64,000 nt of DNA from Hydrogenophaga sp. RAC07 (GTDB lineage Bacteria > Pseudomonadota > Gammaproteobacteria > Burkholderiales > Burkholderiaceae_C), in the NCBI RefSeq assembly GCF_001713375.1, contig NZ_CP016449.1:2542001-2606000 (forward strand). The letters are read 5' to 3'. Below the pieces are notes generated by a model, which made no database searches, was not told where the DNA came from, and saw only the letters and a list, made by a program, of their open reading frames with translations. The first letter of the stretch is position 1, and each line of letters starts with the position of its first letter. The position numbers and the translations under genes were made by a program. This document shows, piece after piece, positions 51,285-64,000 of this stretch.

Positions 51285-51914
51285 ATGAAAAAACGCTGGG
51301 ACATCTCCCCACCCATACACGCCCATGCCCCGGTGTTTCCGGGCGACACGGCCTACACCCAGACCTGGGCCGCCACCATCGGCCCGGGCTGCCCGGTCAA
51401 TGTGAGCGCCATCACGCTCTCGCCCCACGTGGGCGCCCACGCCGACGCGCCGCTGCACTACGACGCCAACGGCGCGGCCATCGGCGAGGTCTCGCTCGAC
51501 GCCTTTCTCGGCCCCTGCCGCGTGATCCACGCCATCGGCTGTGGCCCGCTCGTGAAGCCAGAGCACATCGCGCACGCGCTCACCGACCTGCCGCAACGCG
51601 TGCTGCTGCGCGTCTATGAACACCAGCCACAAGACGCCTTCGACAACGACCTGCCCGCCTTCGCGCCCGAAACCGTGGAGCAACTCGCCGACCTTGGCGT
51701 GCTGCTGATCGGCATCGACAGCGCCAGCATCGACCCGGCCAACAGCAAGACGCTGGACAGCCACCAGACCATCCGCCGCCGCGGCCTGCGCGTGCTGGAA
51801 AACCTGCTGCTCGACGACGTGCCCGAGGGCGACTACGAGCTGATCGCACTGCCCCTGAAACTCACCACCGCCGACGCCAGCCCCGTGCGCGCCATCCTCC
51901 GGGAACTCCCATGA
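51285..51914 (+). CDS. kynB: kynurenine formamidase KynB
   Basis: A 209-residue enzyme that removes formate from N-formylkynurenine. The metal-binding signature is HVGAHADAPLHYDANG (near residues 48-63), with WDISPPIHAHAPVFPGDT at the start and the VPEGDYELIALPLKLTTADASPVRAIL ending seen in bacterial KynB. Its stop overlaps kynU by four bases. Confidence 0.95.
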   Translation: MKKRWDISPPIHAHAPVFPGDTAYTQTWAATIGPGCPVNVSAITLSPHVGAHADAPLHYDANGAAIGEVSLDAFLGPCRVIHAIGCGPLVKPEHIAHALTDLPQRVLLRVYEHQPQDAFDNDLPAFAPETVEQLADLGVLLIGIDSASIDPANSKTLDSHQTIRRRGLRVLENLLLDDVPEGDYELIALPLKLTTADASPVRAILRELP

Positions 51915-53188
51915 CCACCACCCTCCAAGACTGCCGCGCACTCGATGCGCAAGACCCGCTGCGCGCCCTGCGCGACCTGTTCCTGTTGCCTGAAGGCACC
52001 ATTTACCTCGACGGCAACTCGCTCGGCGTGATGCCGCGCAGCGCCCCCGCCCGCGTGGCCGACGTGGTCACCCGCGAATGGGGAGTCGACCTGATCCAGA
52101 GCTGGAACAAGAACGGCTGGTTCGCCATGCCCGGCACAGTGGGCGACAAGATCGCACGCCTGATCGGCGCGGCACCCGGCACCGTGGTGGCCACCGACAG
52201 CACCTCCATCAACCTCTTCAAGGTGCTTTCCGCCGCGCTGAACCTGAGCACCGCCGACCACCCGCAGCGCAAACGCATCGTGAGCGAGCGCAGCAACTTC
52301 CCGACCGACCTCTACATCGCCGAGGCGCTGTGCAAGGAGCGCGGATTTGAACTGGTGCTGGTCGAGCCCGACGAGATTGCATCCGCCCTCACACCCGAGG
52401 TCGCTGTGCTCATGCTCACCCACGTGAACTACCGCACCGGCGCCATGCACGACATGCCCGCCATGACCGCCGCCGCCCACGCCGCCGGCGCGCTGATGCT
52501 CTGGGACCTCGCGCACAGTGCGGGCGCGGTGCCGGTGGACCTGAGCGGCGCGGGCGCCGACTACGCCGTGGGCTGCGGCTACAAGTACCTCAACGGTGGC
52601 CCGGGCGCACCGGCCTTCGTCTGGGTGAACCCCCGCCACACCGACCGCTTCTGGCAACCGCTCGCCGGCTGGTGGGGCCACGCCACACCCTTCGCGTTCA
52701 CACCCGACTACCAGCCCGCGCCTGGCATCACGCGCTACCAATGCGGCACACAACCCATGATCAGCCTGGCCGCGCTCGACTGCGGCGTGGACACGCTGCT
52801 GGCCGCCGAAGCCCTCGGTGGCATGGCCGCGCTGCGCACCAAGTCGCTCGCGCTCACCGACCTCTTCATCTCGCTGGTGGACGAACGCTGCCAGGGCCAC
52901 GGCATTGGTCTGGCCACACCGCTGGACCATGCACAACGCGGCTCGCAGGTCTGCTTGACACGGGATGAAGGCGCGTATGCCATCGTGCAGGCCCTCATCG
53001 CACGCGGCGTGGTCGGCGACTTCCGCGCGGGCGATTCCGGCCAGCACAAGGACATCCTGCGCTTCGGCTTCACACCGCTCTACATCGGCTTCGAAGACGT
53101 GTGGCACTCGGTCGAACACCTGAAACAGGTGCTGGAGAGCGGCGAGTGGCGGCGCGACGAGTTCAACCAGAAACACGCGGTGACCTGA
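51911..53188 (+). CDS. kynU: kynureninase KynU
   Basis: A 425-residue PLP enzyme that cleaves kynurenine to anthranilate and alanine. [16 protein letters not shown] at the start, the [18 protein letters not shown] segment, [15 protein letters not shown] and the PLP-Lys in [22 protein letters not shown] match the family. Second gene of kynBUA, overlapping kynB; two bases separate it from kynA. Confidence 0.95.
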
Positions 53189-53190
53189 CC

Positions 53191-54054
53191 ATGTGCCCGC
53201 ACAACCACTCCGAACCGCAGAAGCCCGAAGACATCGTGCGCGAGGAAGGCGCGCAGCTCGACTTCAGCCGCGACATGAGCTACGGCGACTACCTGCAGCT
53301 GGACAGCATCCTCAGCGCACAAAAGCCGCTCTCGCCCGCGCACGACGAGATGCTCTTCATCATCCAGCACCAGACCAGCGAACTCTGGATGAAGCTCATG
53401 CTGCACGAACTGCACGCAGCCATCCGCCACATCGCGGCCGACGAACTGCAACCCGCGTTCAAGATGCTCGCGCGTGTTTCAAAAATCATGGAGCAACTCG
53501 TGCATGCCTGGGACGTGCTCGCCACCATGACACCGCCCGAGTACAGCGCGCTGCGCCCCTACCTCGCGCAGTCCAGCGGCTTCCAGAGCCACCAGTACCG
53601 CTGCATCGAATTCGCCATGGGCAACAAGAACGCGGCCATGCTGAAACCGCATGCCCACAGCCCCGAGCGGCTGGCCGTGGTGCAGGCCGCGTACGCAGCC
53701 CCGTCGCTGTACGACGAAGCCCTGCGCCTGCTCGCGCGCCGCGGCATTGCCGTGCCCACGAGCCACACCCAACGCGACTGGACCCAGCCCTACGAGGCCA
53801 GCGACGCGGTCGAACAAGCCTGGCTGCAGGTGTACCGCAACCCCAAGGAACACTGGGATCTGTACCAGCTCGGCGAAGAGCTCACCGACCTCGAAGACAC
53901 CTTCCGCCTCTGGCGCTTCCGCCACGTGACCACGGTGGAACGTGTGATCGGCTTCAAGCGCGGCACCGGTGGCACCGGTGGCGTGAGCTATTTGCGCAAG
54001 ATGCTGGACGTGGTGCTGTTTCCCGAAATCTGGCGGCTGCGCACCAACCTCTGA
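53191..54054 (+). CDS. kynA: tryptophan 2,3-dioxygenase KynA
   Basis: A 287-residue haem enzyme that opens the indole ring of tryptophan to N-formylkynurenine. Landmarks: [44 protein letters not shown] with the distal His, [17 protein letters not shown], and the haem-ligating His in [31 protein letters not shown]. The start at 53191 is the family start. The order kynBUA is common in Burkholderiales. Confidence 0.95.
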
Positions 54055-54081: not shown

Positions 54082-55530
54082 TCAATCGCGTTGCAACAGC
54101 ACAGGGCGCAACAGCGCGAGCCCATCGGCGGGCTGCACCTGGCTGGGCAAAGGGCCACAGCGGCACACATCTCCAGTGGAATCGACAGCCCACTCCGCGT
54201 GCTCGCCATGGCCCCAGGTGCCCCAGGGGCCGGGACACTGCGCTGCATCGTGCTGCCACCCGTTGCCCCAGGGGTACAGGCGCCCGTCGTTGCCGCGCAC
54301 GGTGCCCAACCATTCCGCCACGCTGGGCAGGCGCCACCGCCCCGCCTCGCCATCCAGCCAGGCTTGCACAGCCGCCGCGCTGAACAGCCGCGCGCCAGTG
54401 TCTGCCTGGACCGGATCGACAGCCACATGAAAGCCCGCCACCTGCAGCAGCTCGATGGGCCCGGACAGACCATCGCCCCGAAATGCCGGCCCGTCCGGCA
54501 CCCACACCGTGGACAAGGACGGCGCTCCGTCGCACGGCTGCGGCGGCACCGACGGCACGGGCGTGGTCAGTGCGTGCACCATCAACGCAATGTGGTCGGT
54601 CACGTCCTGTGCAGCCAGAGGCACCTGCAGACACTGAGCCAAACGGTCCATCACCTGCAGCTTTGGCGAGGCATGTTCATCCAGCACAGGCGGCACCCGG
54701 CCCGCCAGCAAGGCGCAAGCCACCCGCCGCAGTTCGCACAGCAAAGCACGGTCTTGCACGTCCGGCCCATCGCGACTCACCGATGGCAGCGCACAGTGTT
54801 CCACCAGCCCGGCCAGTGGCCGAACCCGCCACCGTGTGACCCCGATGATGGCGCCCACGCGCACCTCCCAGTCGGGGTCGGCCAGCGCAGCGCGCAGCAC
54901 CGATGCCACACCCGGCGAGGCGCCCGTGTTGTCATTCAACAGCCAGCGAAGGATTTGCCGCCGCAACCACGCGGGGCCGAAGGCGCTCCACAGCGGATGC
55001 GCGCCCTGCCGCTGCGCTGCGGCTTCGCGCATCCATCGGCTGCCCTCGCTCAACAGACCGGGCAACAGGTGCTGCATGGCCGCCACGGCCTCGACCCCTA
55101 TCGCTTCCTCGGCGCGGTGACGCAGGTGTGCCAGCGGCGCAAACAGCGCGGGGTCGCGCATCAGGGCGGCGGCGCGGATGCCTTCGATGACCACCCTCGC
55201 ATCGACCGCCGCCAGCCGCTGCGCCACCGCCTCGCTCGTCCAGGCCGGCAGTTGCGCCAGGCTGGTCAGCTCGGCCTGCTCCGCGTCACCGACATGCAGG
55301 ATCAGGATGAAGCCGTCATCGACCAGCTCGGCATGCCCGCCGCGCCGATTCGTCCACTGGCCGACCAGGCGTTCGTCGACTGGTTGGGATGCCGGGGCTG
55401 GCAGGTCCTCGATCGTCTGCCAGCCAAGGGATTCGAAGACCTTGGACAGGCGCTCCGGCGGGGTGCTCCGTTCCAGCACAAAGACCCTCTCGGTGGTCCC
55501 CGCGGGTGGGTCGGTGGCCATGGCGTTCAT
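54082..55530 (-). CDS. HEAT-like and formylglycine-generating-enzyme-like protein of the accessory operon
   Basis: A 482-residue soluble protein that I cannot assign to a named family. The N-terminal third is unrecognised; a HEAT-like helix pair (LRAALADPDWEVRVGAIIGVTRW) lies near 220-245. The last 90 residues look like an FGE/SUMF1-type domain (RWRLPSVAEWLGTVRGNDGRLYPWGNGW, then GEHAEWAVD), but the RGGSW block and the catalytic Cys pair of true FGE are missing, so it is probably a binding module. It overlaps the preceding small gene by four bases (ATGA) and ends the operon of the giant protein. Confidence 0.65.
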   Translation of the reverse strand: MNAMATDPPAGTTERVFVLERSTPPERLSKVFESLGWQTIEDLPAPASQPVDERLVGQWTNRRGGHAELVDDGFILILHVGDAEQAELTSLAQLPAWTSEAVAQRLAAVDARVVIEGIRAAALMRDPALFAPLAHLRHRAEEAIGVEAVAAMQHLLPGLLSEGSRWMREAAAQRQGAHPLWSAFGPAWLRRQILRWLLNDNTGASPGVASVLRAALADPDWEVRVGAIIGVTRWRVRPLAGLVEHCALPSVSRDGPDVQDRALLCELRRVACALLAGRVPPVLDEHASPKLQVMDRLAQCLQVPLAAQDVTDHIALMVHALTTPVPSVPPQPCDGAPSLSTVWVPDGPAFRGDGLSGPIELLQVAGFHVAVDPVQADTGARLFSAAAVQAWLDGEAGRWRLPSVAEWLGTVRGNDGRLYPWGNGWQHDAAQCPGPWGTWGHGEHAEWAVDSTGDVCRCGPLPSQVQPADGLALLRPVLLQRD

Positions 55531-56156
55531 GGTGCCCTCGCGCGCAAACCAGCCACCACCGCTTCGAACCTTGGCACCAGGCGCTGCGGGTCCCAGGCCT
55601 TCACCCAATGCACGCGGTAGGCATCGACCAGCCTGTCCAGCCCCGCCGGGTCGTGCAGGCTCGCCAGGGTGACGCCGCGCAGCACCCGGCGCACTTCGTT
55701 GCGGCAGTGGACGCACGGCGCCGCAGGGTCGGCGTTGAACGCCCGCTCCATGGCCACGGGGTCGCGCAGGCGGCTGAAATGCGTGGCGCCCGCATCGCGC
55801 AAAAAGGCCACGAAATCGTCCAACGCGGCCACGAGCGCTTCGGGCGAGTGGAGCCGGCGGCGGAGGTCGCCCGTGATGCCGCGTGGCCGGATGTCCCCCA
55901 TGTGCGTGATGGTGGTGGGCGTGTCCAGCCCCGGCCCTCTGCTGGCGGGGTCCAGGCGCGCCAGCAGGCGTTCGACAGCGTCCTGGCGGATATTGAGCGA
56001 AAAATCGAGCTGGGTCTCGCCGGGGTGCTCCACCGTCATCGGCACGATGGCGTCAAAACCGCCGCGCCAGTCGCGCCGGTACACCGCCGGACCGGCACGA
56101 GTGAAGCCATGCGGCAACAGCAGCTCGTCGAGTCGGGCCAGGAAGGCGTGGTTCAT
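55527..56156 (-). CDS. small protein downstream of the giant protein, DUF4304-like texture, candidate immunity protein
   Basis: A 209-residue cytoplasmic protein, unrecognised with certainty. Its start (FLARLDELLLPHGFTRAGPAVYRRDW) and the following DFSLNIRQDAV recall DUF4304-type proteins. It lies ten bases after the stop of the 2588-residue giant and overlaps the next gene by four bases. A small, soluble protein directly after a modular toxin-like gene is the usual place for an immunity protein, but nothing in its sequence proves that. A TTG two codons upstream is an alternative start. Confidence 0.6.
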   Translation of the reverse strand: MNHAFLARLDELLLPHGFTRAGPAVYRRDWRGGFDAIVPMTVEHPGETQLDFSLNIRQDAVERLLARLDPASRGPGLDTPTTITHMGDIRPRGITGDLRRRLHSPEALVAALDDFVAFLRDAGATHFSRLRDPVAMERAFNADPAAPCVHCRNEVRRVLRGVTLASLHDPAGLDRLVDAYRVHWVKAWDPQRLVPRFEAVVAGLRARAP

Positions 56157-56166
56157 GGGCAATTGC

Positions 56167-59100
56167 TCAAGGCGGGGGCGCGTAGGGCATCACCCGCACC
56201 GAGCCATCCGGGTTGTTGGTGTGGATTTCAATGTGGGTGTCGAGCTGGATGTCGTCGCCGTCGGACAAGCCGATCTTGTTGGCCGAATTCTCACTGACCA
56301 CCCTCACCGACCGGATGTCGCCATTCGCGATCTCGGGGTAGGCCAGTGCCTGGCCGCGGGTGTAACCCGGTGTGCTGCCATGGCGCGCGATGCTGGCGCT
56401 CTCCGAGAACTTGGCGTCCACGATGCGGAAGGTGTCGGGGCCGGTCTGCACCAGATTGTCCGGGACGATGAGCACCCTGCGCCCATCGCTCAGCGTCACT
56501 TCCAGCCGCACCTGCTCGGCCACCACGGTCCCCGGGTTCTGCTCGCGCAGACTGGCACTCACAAAGCCTTCGTGGGTGCGCCAGGTCGCCAGGTTCTCCG
56601 CCAGAGTGACCTGCTGGCGCATGCGGGCCTGCAGGCCCTCGATCTGCGCATCCAGCGCCCTGATGCGGGCATGGTCGGGGTGGCTGGTGGGCGGGGTCAT
56701 CCAGCCGTGTTGCGCGAGGATGCGGCTTCGCTCTGCGTCGATCCGGGCGATCTCGCTGTGGGTGGCGCGGATGGCGGCGTGCTCGCCGCGCGCCGCGCTG
56801 GCCTCCGACAGCGCACGTTGAAGGTCCTCGCCGGCCCGAGCAGCCTCCGCGCGTGCACGGCCCACGGTCTTGCGGGCCTCGTTGAGTTCGTGCGCTGCGC
56901 GCCGACGGGCGAGATCCGCTTCCGCACGACGTGCCGCGGGTGCCGTTGCGAGGTCTTCGCCGGCCGCGCGCCGGCGTGCTTCGAGCTCGGGCAGCGAGGC
57001 GCGTGCATCGGCAGCAGCCACGCGCTGGCGCGCCGATTCCACGCGTGCGTCGGCCGCCTGAACGCGTTGCTCGGCGGTGCGCAGATGGCCTTCGCGACCC
57101 TCGCGGCTGCGCACACGCGGTTCGGCGACCGTGCGCCCGTCAGGCACCGTTGGCGTGTTGCCCGCTTCACCAGCCATCGTGTGCGGTGCAGCCGGTATGC
57201 CCGCATGCTCCGGCGCGCCGGCCTCGATGCGGCTGGCCAGTTCCGGGTCTCCCACGGTGCGCGCCGCACTGCGCATCAGGTCCCGGTAAGCCTGGCTTTC
57301 CGGCGGAACCCAGCGGTCCTCTGTCGGGTCCCGCCGGGCCACCGGCGTGCCTTCGTGCTGGGTACGCCACCACACGAGGTAGTCGTCGAGCGTACCGATG
57401 GGCACCACCTCGGAGACCGCAACCGGGCCATCCACGCCCCCGGCCCCGCGCCCGATCTCCAGATGCATGCCGTGCGCGTCGACGACGATGGCGACCCGCG
57501 TGCGCTCGCCGTTGATGATCGATTCGACAAACTCGACGTGGGGTGTACCGCCCGGATGGGCATCGGCAAATAGCGCCATCATCGCGAGGTGAAGGTCCTG
57601 CTGCGCAGGCAAGGTGTAGCGCAGTGCACCTTCCGCGTTGGGATGGAAGTGCATCACCGTTTCCCAGGATCGGCCGGCGCCACCGGCGGGCGGAGCCACC
57701 GAGTTTTCGCGTCCCAGCATCACGTGGTATTCGCCGGTCATGCGGTCGCGGGTCAGGATCGCTTCGTACTGGTTGCCGCCTTCGCTCAAGGCCCTGCGGT
57801 AGGCCGCGTAGGCCTCAGCCGGGTCGTGACCGCGCCAGGTGCCCTGGGCGTCGAGCTGCGGCTCCGGCCCACGCCATGGCAACGGCGGCGGCCCTTCGCC
57901 ACGGATGGCCGCGCGCATCTGGTCCAGCCAGCGCTGGTGGGCAGCGTCGAGTTCGGCGCGCGGTGGAACCACACGGCCCTCGGCCGCCACGAAACCCCGC
58001 CCCGGGCTGAGGTCCATCTCGGCCAGCGTGCGCGTGTGGGTGGCCAGTTGCTCGCGCAGGTGAGCCACGTCCGCCTCGATGTCGGTGCGCTGGCGGATCG
58101 TGAGGTCCGGGCTCGATGCCTCGCGCATGCGCGCTTCAATGATGTCGGGCAGCTTGCGCAGCTCTTGCCGGGCCTCCCACGCACGGGTGCCGGGCGTGGG
58201 CTCACCGTGCAGGAAGGCCCAGTCGGCGAAACCGTCCAGCAGGTGGCGCACACGACCGTAAGCGCCATGCAGTTGCAAGACATTGCGCGCGGTCTCGACG
58301 TGCAGACGGATGTCCGCCGCGCGCGCGCCCGGACCGACCACGATGCGGGGCAAGGGGTCGTGCTCGACGCGCACGGTGCGGGGCGGCAACTCGGGATCGA
58401 TTTCCACCGGCAGGCGCCCGCGCAGGTCGCGCGGCAAGGCGGCGCGTGGATCACCCACCCGGCCGCCACTGCCGGGCTCCACGTTGCGCAAGGTGGCCAT
58501 GTGCGCTTCCAGCTGCGCCCGCACCGCGTGCGGGGAAGCACCTTCGCGAACCACCACATGCACCTGACCATCGCGCACCACCACCGTCGCGTCACCAGTG
58601 CGCCATTGGTTGACGCGACGGAACTCGAGGTCGCTGACCACCGTCACCGGCAGCTCGGCCGCCAGCGCGCGATCACCGGGGGGCAGGGCATCTTCGAGTT
58701 GCGTGGCCACCTCGCGCCGCACGGCCTGCTGGTATTCCGCTTCGCGCATGGCACTGTGGAACTCGCGGTCGATGTGGGCCTGGAACTCGGCCTCGGGCCG
58801 CCCCGGGTGCGTGACCTGCCATTCGGTCATGCGGGCGTGGTACTCGGGCGAGCCCGGCGCCACCCGCTCGGGCAGGCGCAGGTGGGTGTCCACCCCCAGG
58901 CGCGGCATGGCCAGGGCGCCGCGGATGTGTCCAAAGCCTGCACTCGCACCCGAGAAGCCCAGCCCCATGACCAGACCCGGCCCCAAACCCTGGGCGGTGC
59001 CGGAGATCAGGTTGAGCAGCGGATTGCCGGGGCCGCTCCAGGTGTTGTCGTCCAGCGCCACGGCCATCGCCGTGCTGGGCAGGGACTGTACAAAATTCTC

Positions 59101-62100
59101 TGCTGTCTGCGCCATGGCGTGCGCGGCACCGCGGCTGAGCAGCGAGGCTTCTTCGGACACCATGCGCTGCAGGAAACCGCTGGGCCGCAAGCCGCGCGTG
59201 ACCAGGCCTTGCTCGCCCAGATGCGCAGCACCCCGGTTGAGCGCGCCCACGCCGCGTTGCCAGGCGCCGCGCAAACCGGTGGCCGTGGCGCTGCGCACCG
59301 CGCCGGCGCCCGCAGGCCGCGCCAGACCCAGCAGCCGGTCACCCATGCCGGCGGTCAGCGCGGCCACCACCGCATCCACCAGGCCGACCCCGATGTCGAC
59401 CGCGATGTCCTCCCAGCCGTAGGCGTTGCCCTTGAGCAAGGCCTTGGTGCCCATGGTGGCGGCGGTGGAACAGAGCGACGCAATGATGGCCAGCGCCACC
59501 GCACCTGCGGCGCCGCCGGTGAAGATCGAGCCCACCGCACCGACCACCACCGCCACCACGATGCCGACCACGGTGGTGATCGAATCGACCATCGCGTCGC
59601 TGCGCTGGCGGTGGTGCTCGATGGTCTCCTGCATCAGCGCGTTCTGCGTGTCGAAGTCGGCCAGCATGCCGTCGCGGGCACGCCGCTGGGCTTCTGCGTC
59701 GCTGCCGGGTGGCGGCGCCCGCATGCGCGCGGCCATGGCTTCCAGATGCGCGAGTTGCGCCTCCATCACGGCGCGCTCTTCGGTGGCCAGCAAGGCCCCC
59801 ACCCCGTTGGTGGGGCGCTCGAATTCGACCCGGCGGCGCATCTGGGCAATCTGGTCGTCGATGGTCTCAGCCGCACCGTCCAGCGCGATGTCCACGTCCA
59901 GCCACTCGCGCCCGCTCATCTCGGAGGCGGCAGCCTCGCGCAGGGTTTCGCCGTCGTGCTCGCGCTGCCAGCGCGCATCCAGCTCGGCGATCTCCGCGCG
60001 TGTGAGGCCGGCAAATGCCCGCGTTGCAGCACCTTCGTTGGTCCCCACCCCCCGCGTGGCGTAGTCGAACGTCTGGTAGGGGTCGAGGTACCCGCCCTGG
60101 GCGAGCAGGGTCTTCGCCTGATCGTTGGACACGCCACTGGTGCTCTCCAGAATGGCGGTGCGCGCGGATTCGCCGTAGCGGTCGCTGTACTCGCTCTCCA
60201 TGCGATCCAGATTCGTGCTCGCCACGTCACGTGCACGCGCGATCATTTCGCGCTCGATCGTGCGCTCTATCTCCTGCTGCTCGGCCCAACGCTCGGCGGC
60301 GGTCATCACGCGCCCACTTGCACGCTCGCGCGCATCAAGCTCGGCCATCAGGGCACGGCGCCTCTCCGGTGCGTAGTCCAGGCGTTCGGCCACCAGCGCG
60401 CGGTCGTACTGCGAACCGACGGTTGCGTTGATGACGTCGTCGTCGGCATAGGTCAGCGAGGTGCGTTCGATGCGGATGCGCGCCGCATCGGCCGTGGCCA
60501 TGTCGTTGCGCGACAAGGCGTGCAGATAGTCCGCACTGGCGCGTTCGTTCTCCGGCGTGCTGCCCCAGAACAAGCGCTCGGACCGCGTGCCGGCGTCGAT
60601 GGCCTCGTCGAGCGTGCCGGAGGTCTCGGCGTAGCGGCCGTTGTATTCGCGCTCGATGCCCGCCGTGCGGCGCGAGATCTCTGCCTCCATCCAGGCGCTG
60701 TCGCGGTTCTCGCGCGTCGCCTGCGCCTGAACCTCGCGGCGCACGCGCTCGTACACCGAGGCCACGGTGGTCGTGGTCGACGAGTGAAACCAGGAGCCAC
60801 TCAGTTCCTGATCGATCTCGATGGCATCGGCCAGTTGCAGGTTGCCCGCCAGCTCGGCCTCGGCGCGATCGGCCTCCCAGGTGCCCACGGTCGCCCAGTC
60901 GTCCAGCTCACCGCGGGTGTCGGTTGCCAGCTCACGCCCATAGCGCTCGCGGTAGATGCGTGTGACTTCGGCGCGCTCTTCGGCGTTCAGCCCGCGCAGG
61001 GTGTTGTGGATCGTGTCTTCATCGGTGCCCGCGCCTGTGCCCAGAAAGGTTTCGTGCATGGCGCTGTAGAGCGCCGCCGCAGCGGCCTCGGCCCGGTTGC
61101 CCGACAGCAGGGCTTCGGCGCGGTCCCGCTCGCCACCCGACAACTCGTCGCGAACCTCCGAGTCGAGTGACACGCCATAGCGCCGCCGGTAGACGTTGCG
61201 CAGCGCCAGCGACTGCACGCGGTTGAGGCCATCGAGTGCGGCATACACCGCGTCTTCGTCGGTGCCGGCTTCGCTGAGCCAGCCCCAGTTGCCGTGGAAG
61301 GCCGCATACAGGTTGCTGGCCAGGCCGTGCACATCGCGCCCGACCACCTGGCCGATGGTGGCGTACGGAACCTCGTTGTCGGCCAGAAACGTGTCTTCGA
61401 TGCGCGAGATGAGGTTGGCACGGCGCTCGTTCCAGATGCGTGCGCGCGTGAGGTCCGCGACCATGGTGATGGGATCGACGCTGCGCCCTTCGGATTGGGC
61501 GCGAAAGAACGCCTGCACGATCTGCCGCTGATCGCCGGTGAGGCTGTTGAGCTGGGTTTCCTGCTCGGCGGTGATGCCGCGATCGGCGGCGCGCGAGAGC
61601 CGGTCGATCAGGTTCAGGTCCGTGACCACCTCGCTGGCGTGCTGCTGGTTGAGCTGGGACTGCCAGGCCTCGGTGTTGGCGTGGGCCTGGTCGACCCAGT
61701 CGTTGACCATGTTCCAGAGATCGTCCCACCACGAACGAGTCTCGCCGCTCTCGGATTCGTCCCAGCGGCGGATCTCCTCGCGCGAAGCTTCAGCGGCGTC
61801 GCTGGTGGCCGTGCGCCAGCCGTTGGTGTTCTCGGTGACAGTCTGCTTGAAGCCGCGCACCGCGGTGCGCACCATCACCGCACGCTCGTCGGCCCAGGTG
61901 TTGCTGGCAGCCACCAGGGTGTTGATCTCGATCTGCGACAGACCACTCTCCTGCACCGGTGCCGATCCGGTCTGCGTGGTGTAGATCTCGCGCAGCCGCG
62001 TCTGGCGCTCGGCGGGCAAGGCGGCCATGGCGTTCAACTGAAAATCGTCGACCTGCGCCGCCGCCCGGTAGGCGTCGATGCGCTGGGTCTGCGTGTTGTC

Positions 62101-63933
62101 CAGTTCGCGGTCGCGGTCCTCCTTGGCGCGCCGGTAGGCGGCATCGATTTCGGCCGTGCGCCGTGTCACCTGCCCCAACAAGCGGTCGCGTGTGGCGTGG
62201 ATGTGATCGGTGTGGGACTCGCCGGTGCTGGAGGCAGACACCGCATCGGCGGTGGTGTTGATGCGCTCTGCCTCGCTGGCGATGGTGGACGACAGGCCGT
62301 CGTGCGCGGTGCACACCAGCGTGCTGGCGTCGGTGGTGCTGCTCATCAGCTCTTCGCGGGCGGCCAGCTCCTCCTCTTCCAGCACCGCGTGGCGTTGCGC
62401 AATGGCTTGGTCCAGGTCGCCAGCGGCCACCCCCGCCTGGCGCGCGATGTCGCGGTACTGGGTGTTCAGTTCCTCGGCCAGGTTGGCCACATGGGGATCG
62501 TCCCCGTACCCGGGCAGCTCGCGGTCCAGCGCGCCACCCGGAAACGCGGCCGTGCGGGCGCGCCCCACCATGTCCTGCGCTTCGCTCTGCGGTCGGGCCA
62601 GCAGCCGTGCGAACACATGCGCCATCTGGGTGCGCGCAGCCGGAGTCGGCGTGGGCACCGGCGCGGGCGGGTGCGGCACCAGGGTGGTTTCGCCGGATGC
62701 CGTGGGCGCCACTGGCTCGGGGTTGAGCATGCGTTCGCGCAGATCGATCAGCGGCTGGCGCGGATCGTCCGGCATGGACATTTGCGGGCCCTCGTCCAGC
62801 ACCTGGTGCGCCGCGCGCAACTGCTCGGCGGACACCGGTCGTGCGCCCAGGCGCGGCGTGTTGCCCAGCGGGGTCTGGTACAGCACCACGAAGCCTTGCT
62901 CGGGCAGCGTGTGGCCCGCAGTTTCTTCTACGCGCTCGATGGCCTGCGGCACCGGGTTGTCCTCGGCCACCTCGGGCGGCAGGGTCATGCCCTCGGGCAC
63001 CGGTGGCATCAGTTCGGCAGCGGCGTCGGGCACCGTGCTTTCGGTGAAGCGGATCTCTTCTTCGCGGGTCGCTGCGGCGGTGGCCACAGCACCGCCGCCC
63101 CGCGCGATGGCCGGGCGCGGCACCGCTGCTGCGCGCGCGCTCACGGCGGCCTGGAAGTCCGCCATTGAGGTGGCCTCGGCAGGCTCCGCACCACCCGCTT
63201 CGGCTGCAGCATCGCCCTCGGCCATCGGGTCCACTTCGCCCGGCACGTCTTCGGCAGGCGCGTCCTCCCATGCAAACTCTTCATCCGCCACGGCCAGCGC
63301 TTCATCGAGCTCGGGCTCGCCTCCGTCGTCCAGCACCGCCTCCGTGTCAGGTGCCAGGCCGAGATCGGGGTTGTCAACGTCACCAGGCTCTGCGGCATCG
63401 CCCACCGCGTCGGTCGGTGCGGCGTCGGTCGGCACAGCATCGGTGGCCGGTGCGTCGCCGTCAGCGGCATCGGTGCGGGAGACATCGTCGGTGGCCACGG
63501 CAACCGGCTCGTGATCGGGCCCCGGGGTGTCGGCCACGGGCGCTGCCGGGTCGCTGCCGGCATCGACACGCGCAGATGCCGAGGGTGCGTCGACCAACGT
63601 TGCCACGTCGGCGGGAGCCTCCACATCCACATCAACGTCCGGGATCGGCGCTGCATCCAGCCCCGCCTCCAGCCGTGGCATTTGCTCCAGCGGTGAAAAC
63701 CCGCCCTCCTTGCGCGCGCCCGGAATCTCCACCACCCGGGCATCCGCCAGCGTGCCCTGCATGACCAGATAGGGGGGCAACGCGGCGCGGGTGTCCGCCA
63801 GCGCGGCCTCCAGTTCCGCGTCCAGGCGGGAGCGCAGCAACGCACGTTCGTGTTCTGCGGCCGGGTCGGCAGCGCCCCGGCGGCGGCGGCGCGAGGGGTC
63901 GCGCTCGCGCCGCCCCGTCGCGTGCTCGGCCAT
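56167..63933 (-). CDS. giant modular protein with annexin-like repeats and a nuclease-like C-terminus, putative polymorphic toxin
   Basis: A 2588-residue protein, unrecognised as a whole. In order: a basic N-terminus without signal peptide; a Pro/Ala/Asp linker (about 98-257); a helical region (300-850); annexin-like repeats with GTDED near 890 and GTDEDT near 969, each ending D-E-L-x-G, and a third with GTNEG near 1297; a Gly/Ala/Val hydrophobic part (about 1447-1535) that may insert in membranes; helical regions; HFHPNAEG near 2094, which resembles a JAB/MPN metal motif; an Arg/Ala/Glu coiled coil (2273-2411); and a C-terminal LIVPDN...IVDAKFS with Pro-Asp at 2491-2492 and Asp-Ala-Lys at 2506-2508, as in PD-(D/E)xK nucleases. 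The ATG overlaps the stop of an upstream gene (TGATG). Secretion route unknown. Confidence 0.8.
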   Translation of the reverse strand: MAEHATGRRERDPSRRRRRGAADPAAEHERALLRSRLDAELEAALADTRAALPPYLVMQGTLADARVVEIPGARKEGGFSPLEQMPRLEAGLDAAPIPDVDVDVEAPADVATLVDAPSASARVDAGSDPAAPVADTPGPDHEPVAVATDDVSRTDAADGDAPATDAVPTDAAPTDAVGDAAEPGDVDNPDLGLAPDTEAVLDDGGEPELDEALAVADEEFAWEDAPAEDVPGEVDPMAEGDAAAEAGGAEPAEATSMADFQAAVSARAAAVPRPAIARGGGAVATAAATREEEIRFTESTVPDAAAELMPPVPEGMTLPPEVAEDNPVPQAIERVEETAGHTLPEQGFVVLYQTPLGNTPRLGARPVSAEQLRAAHQVLDEGPQMSMPDDPRQPLIDLRERMLNPEPVAPTASGETTLVPHPPAPVPTPTPAARTQMAHVFARLLARPQSEAQDMVGRARTAAFPGGALDRELPGYGDDPHVANLAEELNTQYRDIARQAGVAAGDLDQAIAQRHAVLEEEELAAREELMSSTTDASTLVCTAHDGLSSTIASEAERINTTADAVSASSTGESHTDHIHATRDRLLGQVTRRTAEIDAAYRRAKEDRDRELDNTQTQRIDAYRAAAQVDDFQLNAMAALPAERQTRLREIYTTQTGSAPVQESGLSQIEINTLVAASNTWADERAVMVRTAVRGFKQTVTENTNGWRTATSDAAEASREEIRRWDESESGETRSWWDDLWNMVNDWVDQAHANTEAWQSQLNQQHASEVVTDLNLIDRLSRAADRGITAEQETQLNSLTGDQRQIVQAFFRAQSEGRSVDPITMVADLTRARIWNERRANLISRIEDTFLADNEVPYATIGQVVGRDVHGLASNLYAAFHGNWGWLSEAGTDEDAVYAALDGLNRVQSLALRNVYRRRYGVSLDSEVRDELSGGERDRAEALLSGNRAEAAAAALYSAMHETFLGTGAGTDEDTIHNTLRGLNAEERAEVTRIYRERYGRELATDTRGELDDWATVGTWEADRAEAELAGNLQLADAIEIDQELSGSWFHSSTTTTVASVYERVRREVQAQATRENRDSAWMEAEISRRTAGIEREYNGRYAETSGTLDEAIDAGTRSERLFWGSTPENERASADYLHALSRNDMATADAARIRIERTSLTYADDDVINATVGSQYDRALVAERLDYAPERRRALMAELDARERASGRVMTAAERWAEQQEIERTIEREMIARARDVASTNLDRMESEYSDRYGESARTAILESTSGVSNDQAKTLLAQGGYLDPYQTFDYATRGVGTNEGAATRAFAGLTRAEIAELDARWQREHDGETLREAAASEMSGREWLDVDIALDGAAETIDDQIAQMRRRVEFERPTNGVGALLATEERAVMEAQLAHLEAMAARMRAPPPGSDAEAQRRARDGMLADFDTQNALMQETIEHHRQRSDAMVDSITTVVGIVVAVVVGAVGSIFTGGAAGAVALAIIASLCSTAATMGTKALLKGNAYGWEDIAVDIGVGLVDAVVAALTAGMGDRLLGLARPAGAGAVRSATATGLRGAWQRGVGALNRGAAHLGEQGLVTRGLRPSGFLQRMVSEEASLLSRGAAHAMAQTAENFVQSLPSTAMAVALDDNTWSGPGNPLLNLISGTAQGLGPGLVMGLGFSGASAGFGHIRGALAMPRLGVDTHLRLPERVAPGSPEYHARMTEWQVTHPGRPEAEFQAHIDREFHSAMREAEYQQAVRREVATQLEDALPPGDRALAAELPVTVVSDLEFRRVNQWRTGDATVVVRDGQVHVVVREGASPHAVRAQLEAHMATLRNVEPGSGGRVGDPRAALPRDLRGRLPVEIDPELPPRTVRVEHDPLPRIVVGPGARAADIRLHVETARNVLQLHGAYGRVRHLLDGFADWAFLHGEPTPGTRAWEARQELRKLPDIIEARMREASSPDLTIRQRTDIEADVAHLREQLATHTRTLAEMDLSPGRGFVAAEGRVVPPRAELDAAHQRWLDQMRAAIRGEGPPPLPWRGPEPQLDAQGTWRGHDPAEAYAAYRRALSEGGNQYEAILTRDRMTGEYHVMLGRENSVAPPAGGAGRSWETVMHFHPNAEGALRYTLPAQQDLHLAMMALFADAHPGGTPHVEFVESIINGERTRVAIVVDAHGMHLEIGRGAGGVDGPVAVSEVVPIGTLDDYLVWWRTQHEGTPVARRDPTEDRWVPPESQAYRDLMRSAARTVGDPELASRIEAGAPEHAGIPAAPHTMAGEAGNTPTVPDGRTVAEPRVRSREGREGHLRTAEQRVQAADARVESARQRVAAADARASLPELEARRRAAGEDLATAPAARRAEADLARRRAAHELNEARKTVGRARAEAARAGEDLQRALSEASAARGEHAAIRATHSEIARIDAERSRILAQHGWMTPPTSHPDHARIRALDAQIEGLQARMRQQVTLAENLATWRTHEGFVSASLREQNPGTVVAEQVRLEVTLSDGRRVLIVPDNLVQTGPDTFRIVDAKFSESASIARHGSTPGYTRGQALAYPEIANGDIRSVRVVSENSANKIGLSDGDDIQLDTHIEIHTNNPDGSVRVMPYAPPP

Positions 63934-64000
63934 CAGCCACCTCCCGGGCGTTCGCTCAACCCGGCGGGCAGCTGCTTGCCCAGCTTGCGGTACTCGGCCG
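63933..64000 (-). CDS. end of an upstream gene in the giant-protein operon (partial)
   Basis: The last 21 residues of a protein (ending RKLGKQLPAGLSERPGGG) and its TGA, which overlaps the ATG of the giant gene. The frame is open to the window edge. Too short to identify, but it shows that the giant is not the first gene of its operon. Confidence 0.7.
   Translation of the reverse strand, partial: AEYRKLGKQLPAGLSERPGGG

Follow-up and report, generated by a model that had tools for sequence, protein, structure and literature searches.

What is the 2588-residue protein encoded at the end of this DNA, how would it be delivered, and which cells would it act on? The stretch analysed here (the window, 64,000 nucleotides) corresponds to C1:2542001-2606000 of a single-contig 4.67-Mb genome. 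A preliminary description of its letters had taken the protein for a large polymorphic toxin or contractile-system effector in a multi-gene accessory operon. In our best explanation, which we consider quite probable, the protein (referred to as the giant) is the payload of an extracellular contractile injection system (eCIS), a machine resembling a phage tail. It combines a membrane-binding carrier with an exchangeable toxin tip, is accompanied by a cognate immunity gene and acts mainly on bacteria. This explanation builds on two observations: the giant lies directly behind an eCIS ATPase gene, and its carrier belongs to a family with exchangeable C-terminal tips.

The giant ORF follows an eCIS ATPase gene

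The ORF of the giant, carrier and toxin tip together, occupies positions 56167-63933 of the minus strand, starts with ATG and encodes 2588 residues without an internal stop. The position-specific GC of the open frame, counted to the window edge, is 0.75/0.52/0.84. The length of the ORF is weak evidence, because long spurious frames occur at the GC content of 67.8%, such as an antisense frame of 1193 aa at 57589-61170. We take the ORF to be real because the protein is conserved in other genomes, so the single 7.8-kb frame first reported stands.

The ATG of the giant shares one base with the stop codon of the preceding gene (TGATG). This gene encodes an AAA ATPase (63933-65879, minus strand; PF00004, E 2.3e-23), and its 3' end, 63933-64000, lies in the window. 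Inspection of the genes upstream of position 64000, a check suggested earlier, revealed an eCIS cluster on the minus strand from window position 63933 to approximately 91565, beyond the window end. The cluster contains a Pvc16_N (DUF4255) cap protein (3.6e-39), a sheath (2.7e-23), two gp19 tube proteins (3.6e-33 and 3e-34), CIS_tube (6.1e-21), Phage_GPD (2.6e-12) and a spike OB domain (2.1e-23). Further genes match gp25 (2.7e-23), Baseplate_J (1.7e-12) and Tail_P2_I (1.3e-10). Sheath, gp19, Baseplate_J, gp25, spike, Pvc16 cap and ATPase, the genes by which we define an eCIS locus, are thus present in one cluster. The core matches exceed the Pfam cut-offs, except a second sheath-like protein, matched in its C-domain (1.9e-5), which falls just below (25.1 versus 26.9 bits). 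A Pfam scan of 18 proteins encoded in the upstream cluster found no capsid or terminase gene such as a prophage would have. The accessory operon is therefore confirmed as an eCIS, and the sheath, tube, baseplate, spike and ATPase genes directly upstream support the reading of the giant as a contractile-system effector.

Proteins of 316, 754 and 1612 aa sit between Tail_P2_I and a 544-aa gene; of these, the 316-aa and 754-aa proteins show a weak resemblance to CIS13 (8.1e-9 and 0.0057, both far below the cut-off). The 544-aa gene stands directly before the ATPase gene. It has no family match of its own, related genes occur in 17 of the 17 same-family ATPase loci compared, and no relative was found in the Roseomonas locus discussed below. 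A PHROGs search at E 0.01 returned no match for the giant or for five other unnamed cluster proteins. Domains of the eCIS_core, DUF4157 or PVC-metallopeptidase type were found neither in the giant and the two proteins encoded behind it at E 1, nor in the upstream cluster at 0.01. DUF4157 is frequent and not universal, being absent for 5 of the 13 toxins in Table 1 of PMC8213781.

Two further genes follow on the minus strand. A 209-aa gene (55527-56156), which by its position is the candidate immunity gene, lies 10 bases downstream of the giant. It is overlapped by ATGA with a 482-aa gene (54082-55530), which has a weak FGE-sulfatase-like end (E 0.029, below the cut-off). This spacing suggests that the genes for the ATPase, the giant and the 209-aa and 482-aa proteins are transcribed together. 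Genes for arylformamidase, kynureninase and tryptophan 2,3-dioxygenase (kynA) adjoin the operon on the plus strand (51285-54054). We notice that a kynA gene is also located beside the eCIS ATPase loci L042, L073, L075 and L076.

The carrier contains annexin repeats and a hydrophobic hairpin

The N-terminal region of the giant (residues 1-330; 62944-63933, minus strand, as are all features below) is acidic and Pro/Ala-rich. Judged by composition and not by a disorder program, it is probably disordered, in keeping with the disordered linker noticed before. The conserved carrier covers residues 250-2003 (57925-63186) and shows 77% identity to a protein of genome G522 and 30-34% to a Roseomonas plasmid protein.

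Annexin is the single Pfam family above its cut-off in the giant (5.2e-11; 42.9 bits against a cut-off of 25). It matches two stretches, the better at residues 966-1010, and the annexin slice searched alone gives 1.3e-13. A profile built from three carrier sequences matches PDB chains of annexins with E values as low as 6.4e-21, which bears out the annexin-like repeats of the preliminary description. The same profile locates repeat 1 at residues ~876-940 (61114-61308), with GTDE at 890-893. Repeat 2, residues ~955-1012 (60898-61071) with GAGTDED, is supported by Pfam and by the profile. A further repeat, residues ~1285-1345 (59899-60081) with GVGTNE, rests on a profile match to annexin VI and is weak in the domain search.

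A canonical annexin has four repeats with type II Ca2+ sites, each composed of GxGT and an acidic residue. In the giant we found three repeats and detected no fourth one. GxGT is present in two of them, and repeat 1 has EAGT instead. The acidic residue after GT lies at T+39 in repeats 1 and 2 and at T+40 in the third. In the annexin A5 repeat used for comparison, the acidic Ca2+-ligand residue is at T+39. When the order was searched for annexin, 1 of 399 genomes matched, which was the genome studied here, in a sample drawn without G522. Bacterial annexins form a patchy family without an agreed role, and the giant ties them to the payload slot of an eCIS.

A hydrophobic hairpin follows at residues 1448-1535 (59329-59592; KD 2.35 over 21 residues), which confirms the hydrophobic segment of the preliminary description. 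Residues 1843-1961 (58051-58407) are 37% identical to a DUF4781/endonuclease protein of Bosea. From approximately residue 1987 onwards a variable C-terminal module begins (56170-57975), since the alignment with the G522 protein ends near GRGFVAAEG / residue 2003. Within this module, an HxH...D stretch at residues 2060-2160 (57454-57756) looks JAB-like by eye only and has no Pfam match at E 10. The coiled coil, residues 2277-2466 (56536-57105), is taken from a single-sequence structure model. The earlier assignment of a coiled coil is supported in so far as long helices are modelled from residue 2277 on. Blocks of 10 residues reach pLDDT 59-94 for residues 2279-2448, and approximately 40 for the last 20.

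Relatives keep the carrier and exchange the tip

The nearest relative, in the G522 locus L040, has 77% identity to the giant over residues 250-2003. Their alignment stops shortly after a conserved GRGF[VI]AAEG. The G522 protein contains annexin and ends in Colicin_D (2.3e-21), and the genes are ordered as effector, then Colicin_immun (8.8e-12), then a homologue of the 482-aa gene (45% identity). Colicin_immun occupies the same place there as the 209-aa gene does here. Between the two loci, the carrier and the 482-aa gene are kept, whereas the tip is exchanged along with the gene that separates the effector from the 482-aa gene.

Searching with the giant by tblastn gave two matches in 72,556 plasmid records and none in 50,697 phage records. 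The first is WP_207448902.1, a 2315-aa protein annotated as hypothetical on plasmid p1318-4 of Roseomonas marmotae. It is 30% identical to the giant over residues 319-1984 and lies directly behind its own eCIS cluster and the ATPase of that cluster. It matches Annexin (5.5e-14), reaches 27.0 bits for PT-HINT where the cut-off is 27.7, and has a tail that looks GIY-YIG-like by eye. The neighbouring 305-aa gene has no family match. The second match, in Bosea vestrisii, is a DUF4781 protein with an endonuclease end, which has only residues 1843-1961 in common with the giant. This protein (L039 17775-21089) is found beside a type III secretion locus, and a YezG-like gene, below the cut-off, follows it (L039 21092-21487).

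The annexin-hairpin slice matches in 7 of 399 family genomes at <=1e-6, namely the genome itself, G522 at 84% and five at 28-34%. Four of these five (L041, L043, L059, L060) belong to a second eCIS carrier family, and the fifth, G564, is represented by a 3.1-kb contig only. The second family also includes L073. Its members are 2836-3069 aa long where complete (L059 is cut) and have a hairpin similar in sequence to that of the giant. L041 has ~1800 residues in common with L043, L059, L060 and L073, but not their end. By eye, we observed in these four a common VPDL...EAKG end of a restriction-nuclease-type look. Pattern scans of genome contigs gave 5 matches for the giant and 140 for the carrier alignment, none of them confirmed.

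The operon itself is found in other genomes, so the concern raised earlier that it might be conserved nowhere else is removed. An ATPase match at <=1e-40 is present in 40 of 250 same-family genomes (own included), not all of which need be eCIS.

On these sequence comparisons, the giant is a polymorphic toxin, because the tip and the neighbour gene change while the carrier stays. The first suggestion of a large polymorphic toxin is thereby upheld. The signature of a toxin with its immunity gene is seen among the relatives, and by analogy it would extend to the giant and its 209-aa neighbour. The carrier has three observed natural ends (that of the giant, Colicin D and a HINT-like one), and delivery could be studied on it.

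The tip is a putative nuclease with a candidate immunity gene

The C-terminal tip, residues ~2466-2588 (56170-56538), is a putative PD-(D/E)xK nuclease, as judged by residues picked out by eye and one remote match. P2491-D2492 (in VPD), D2506-x-K2508 (DAK) and Q2528 follow one another as they do in PD-(D/E)xK enzymes. Among 300 genomes from the order and 321 from the class, the search for the tip gave one convincing homologue besides the genome itself. This homologue in G120 (2.2e-4) has 38% identity over 68 residues in a disrupted frame, with PD and DAK kept. It is located at L063 4904-5101 near repeats that look haemagglutinin-like by eye, which is a CDI-like setting.

Two other matches were rejected. 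The alignment of G810 (1.1e-4) lacks PD and DAK and falls in an apparent efflux adaptor gene by eye. That of G804 (0.0073) stops before the DAK position, and this match also lies in a frame opposite apparent secretion pseudopilin genes (by eye). Plasmids and phages gave no match to the tip at E 0.01. No Pfam family was matched by the tip, as whole protein or as slice, and none in NCBIfam either. Neither slice 2004-2261 nor slice 2412-2588 has a match at 1e-4 among the 41 loci that were fetched, a set which includes two non-eCIS loci (L077, L078) and leaves out the G120 locus that matches the tip.

In a model of the last 380 residues, the strand order of the tip fits PD-(D/E)xK, at pLDDT ~47-60 over the key strands. 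When the tip was folded alone, mean pLDDT was 38 and this strand order did not appear. A Foldseek search with the C-terminal model was not used: the best of its 352 matches has E 0.065, and the best 50 are mostly long-helix proteins, e.g. BAR domains. The nuclease-like end of the preliminary description is plausible, on its PD...DxK...Q residues and a single remote homologue; it has neither a Pfam match nor a confident model.

The 209-aa protein matches nothing in Pfam or NCBIfam, and nothing at 1e-4 in the same 41 loci. Compared with the pieces beside the G120 tip homologue it scores 35, where shuffled sequences have a mean of 26.3, an sd of 4.4 and a maximum of 44. By analogy with G522, the 209-aa gene is a probable cognate immunity gene of the tip. 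Tip and gene are thus a candidate toxin-immunity pair unmatched in Pfam and NCBIfam.

Whole effectors also differ behind the ATPase

In all 18 nearer loci that allowed a judgement (that of the giant and 17 others), a large ORF of 1102-3069 aa lies <=300 bases behind the ATPase. This count left out L044 and L079, in which the ATPase is present but the sequence ends too soon after it, L059 and L057, where the carrier is on a short piece and the ATPase was not seen, and 19 more distant eCIS-type loci. The latter do not generally have one giant ORF behind the ATPase, and several of them have smaller ORFs with an HExxH motif or structural genes at this place.

Within the genus, an ATPase match is present in 10 of 60 genomes (own included). 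We looked at six same-genus loci, of which L042, L073, L075 and L076 have kynA at 93-97% identity, the gene being only partly contained in the L075 and L076 pieces. L074 has no kynA, and the L079 piece is, at 3 kb, too short to show whether the gene is there. At the four loci with kynA, the ORFs behind the ATPase are unlike the giant, except for residues 1297-1534 in L073. Because these ORFs are otherwise without similarity to the giant, eCIS ATPases beside the same kynA gene have different payload genes behind them. This exchange is read from the ATPase loci and not from a comparison of whole eCIS clusters.

A short motif is common to otherwise unrelated eCIS effectors of this lineage. The pattern [LMW]P[RPSN][YF][LM] occurs within the first 220 residues of 14 of the 18 effector-slot proteins and zero times in the 30,202 residues after the first 220. 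It was made and adjusted after seeing these proteins, several of which are close relatives. An earlier, looser pattern occurred in 10 of 14 slot proteins, plus once more each in L043 and L060. In the giant, the motif is LPPYL at residues 52-56 (63766-63780), a possible loading signal. As a general eCIS signal the motif was rejected, as it is absent from the listed ORFs of the 19 more distant loci (those on the ATPase strand with >=250 aa). A loading signal specific to this lineage is a possible role for it, and signal peptides of eCIS are described as falling into groups by sequence (PMC11495950).

Proposed mechanism and alternative explanations

We infer loading of the giant by its own ATPase, Ca2+ docking, membrane passage, nuclease activity, immunity and a bacterial target as follows. 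The ATPase would recognise the disordered N-terminus, unfold the chain and load it into the tail tube; the Pvc15 ATPase is reported to be needed to load payloads that bear N-terminal signals (PMC11495950). Once the tail has contracted, the annexin repeats would dock on a phospholipid membrane, possibly in a Ca2+-dependent manner because GT and the acidic ligand positions of the Ca2+ site are retained. Next, the hydrophobic hairpin would insert into this membrane. The C-terminal tip, probably a PD-(D/E)xK nuclease, would then reach the cytosol and cut nucleic acid. The 209-aa gene would be the cognate immunity gene, and the main targets would therefore probably be other bacteria.

Several points count against this explanation. 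The tip has no family match and poor models, the 209-aa protein is unmatched, and its comparison with G120 does not rise above the shuffles. The usual marker eCIS_core is absent, and repeat 1 has EAGT. More distant eCIS-type loci do not, as a rule, have a single giant behind the ATPase. Moreover, annexin is among the eCIS domains for which Geller et al. predicted an anti-eukaryotic role (PMC8213781).

That prediction leads to the strongest alternative, in which the delivery part of our explanation is kept and the target differs. The annexin would act in or on a protist or invertebrate cell, and the neighbour gene would only protect the producer. The eCIS of Serratia and Photorhabdus do act on insects (PMC3482391). 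However, the nearest relative of the giant has a Colicin D end and is followed by a colicin-immunity gene, which makes an antibacterial pair, and the CDI-like surroundings of the remote tip homologue, as seen by eye, also speak against a eukaryotic target. We regard this alternative as unlikely. The Colicin D and immunity gene on the nearest carrier point to bacterial targets, against the published guess of anti-eukaryotic annexin effectors.

An effector related to tape measures (Tme/Sle1 type) is less likely still. In this alternative, which overlaps with our explanation as the giant is an effector in both, it would also set or template the tail length and occupy the tube, with the enzyme last. 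The giant is indeed the largest ORF of its locus and has a coiled coil, a hydrophobic hairpin and a nuclease-like end, as in Tme (PMC11126660). On the other hand, the whole protein has no PHROGs match at E 0.01, a result that, at the level of the whole protein, also speaks against the earlier reservation about a phage tail-length family. The tme gene lies directly upstream of baseplate genes, whereas the giant is behind the ATPase, and a range of 1102-3069 aa for the slot ORF in related eCIS loci would be odd for a ruler. In PVC clusters the tape measure directly precedes the ATPase. That place is occupied here by the 544-aa gene, to which related genes are found in 17 of 17 loci.

Finally, a role as a fibre or other large structural component of the particle, without injection, is very improbable: annexin repeats and coiled coils in so large a protein could serve attachment, but the tip is exchanged together with the neighbour gene, as is typical of toxins, and unrelated large ORFs fill the slot at eCIS ATPases beside the same kynA.

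Within our preferred reading of the giant as an eCIS payload, we put forward a bolder proposal tentatively, and think it somewhat more likely wrong than right. To date, the multi-repeat annexin module is known from its action on eukaryotic membranes. Here it might be a Ca2+-triggered dock on the bacterial membrane that pulls interchangeable antibacterial toxins across, and the particle would be re-armed by exchange of tip and immunity gene or of the whole effector.

Relation to known systems

The giant most likely belongs to a known kind, the annexin-bearing polymorphic effectors of eCIS. Annexin is listed among the domains associated with eCIS (PMC8213781), and annexin-bearing PVC/eCIS toxins, from Haliangium among others, had been published by 2012 (PMC3482391). 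The latter resemble the giant in PVC/eCIS delivery and in the order of annexin and then enzymatic tip, and a part for annexin in breaching the membrane of the target was proposed for them. They are described with a single annexin domain, whereas the giant has at least 3 repeats. The Ntox3 toxins of PVC are listed there with PVC-metallopeptidase, and the giant is without an eCIS_core match. A notable share of PVC systems is reported there to have no adjacent immunity gene, whereas the giant has a candidate one.

An annexin protein with Colicin D from the Burkholderiales bacterium JOSHI_001 was in print in 2014 (PMC3894181). It is described with at least 3 annexin domains beside a membrane anchor, followed by a bacteriocin-type Colicin D. 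The G522 protein likewise combines annexin and Colicin D; the giant has another tip and another neighbour gene. The text of that paper contains neither 'contractile' nor 'phage tail'. Tme of the Streptomyces davawensis CIS is similar in its size of 2247 aa, hydrophobic regions, coiled coils, disorder and C-terminal endonuclease (PMC11126660). According to the same source it has DUF4157, an EndA-like nuclease and tape-measure homology, whereas the giant has annexin repeats and no DUF4157 or PHROGs match. Reconfigurable Sle1 effectors are described in PMC13277306.

Among the papers listed in literature searches on annexin, eCIS, polymorphic toxin and colicin D, none was seen to join the carrier family, exchanged tips and eCIS loci. 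We regard as new parts the tip of the giant, its neighbour gene and a carrier without eCIS_core. The Roseomonas marmotae p1318-4 protein is alike in its carrier (30% identity) and its place directly behind an eCIS ATPase. It differs by the sub-cut-off PT-HINT, the tail that looks GIY-YIG-like by eye and the 305-aa neighbour.
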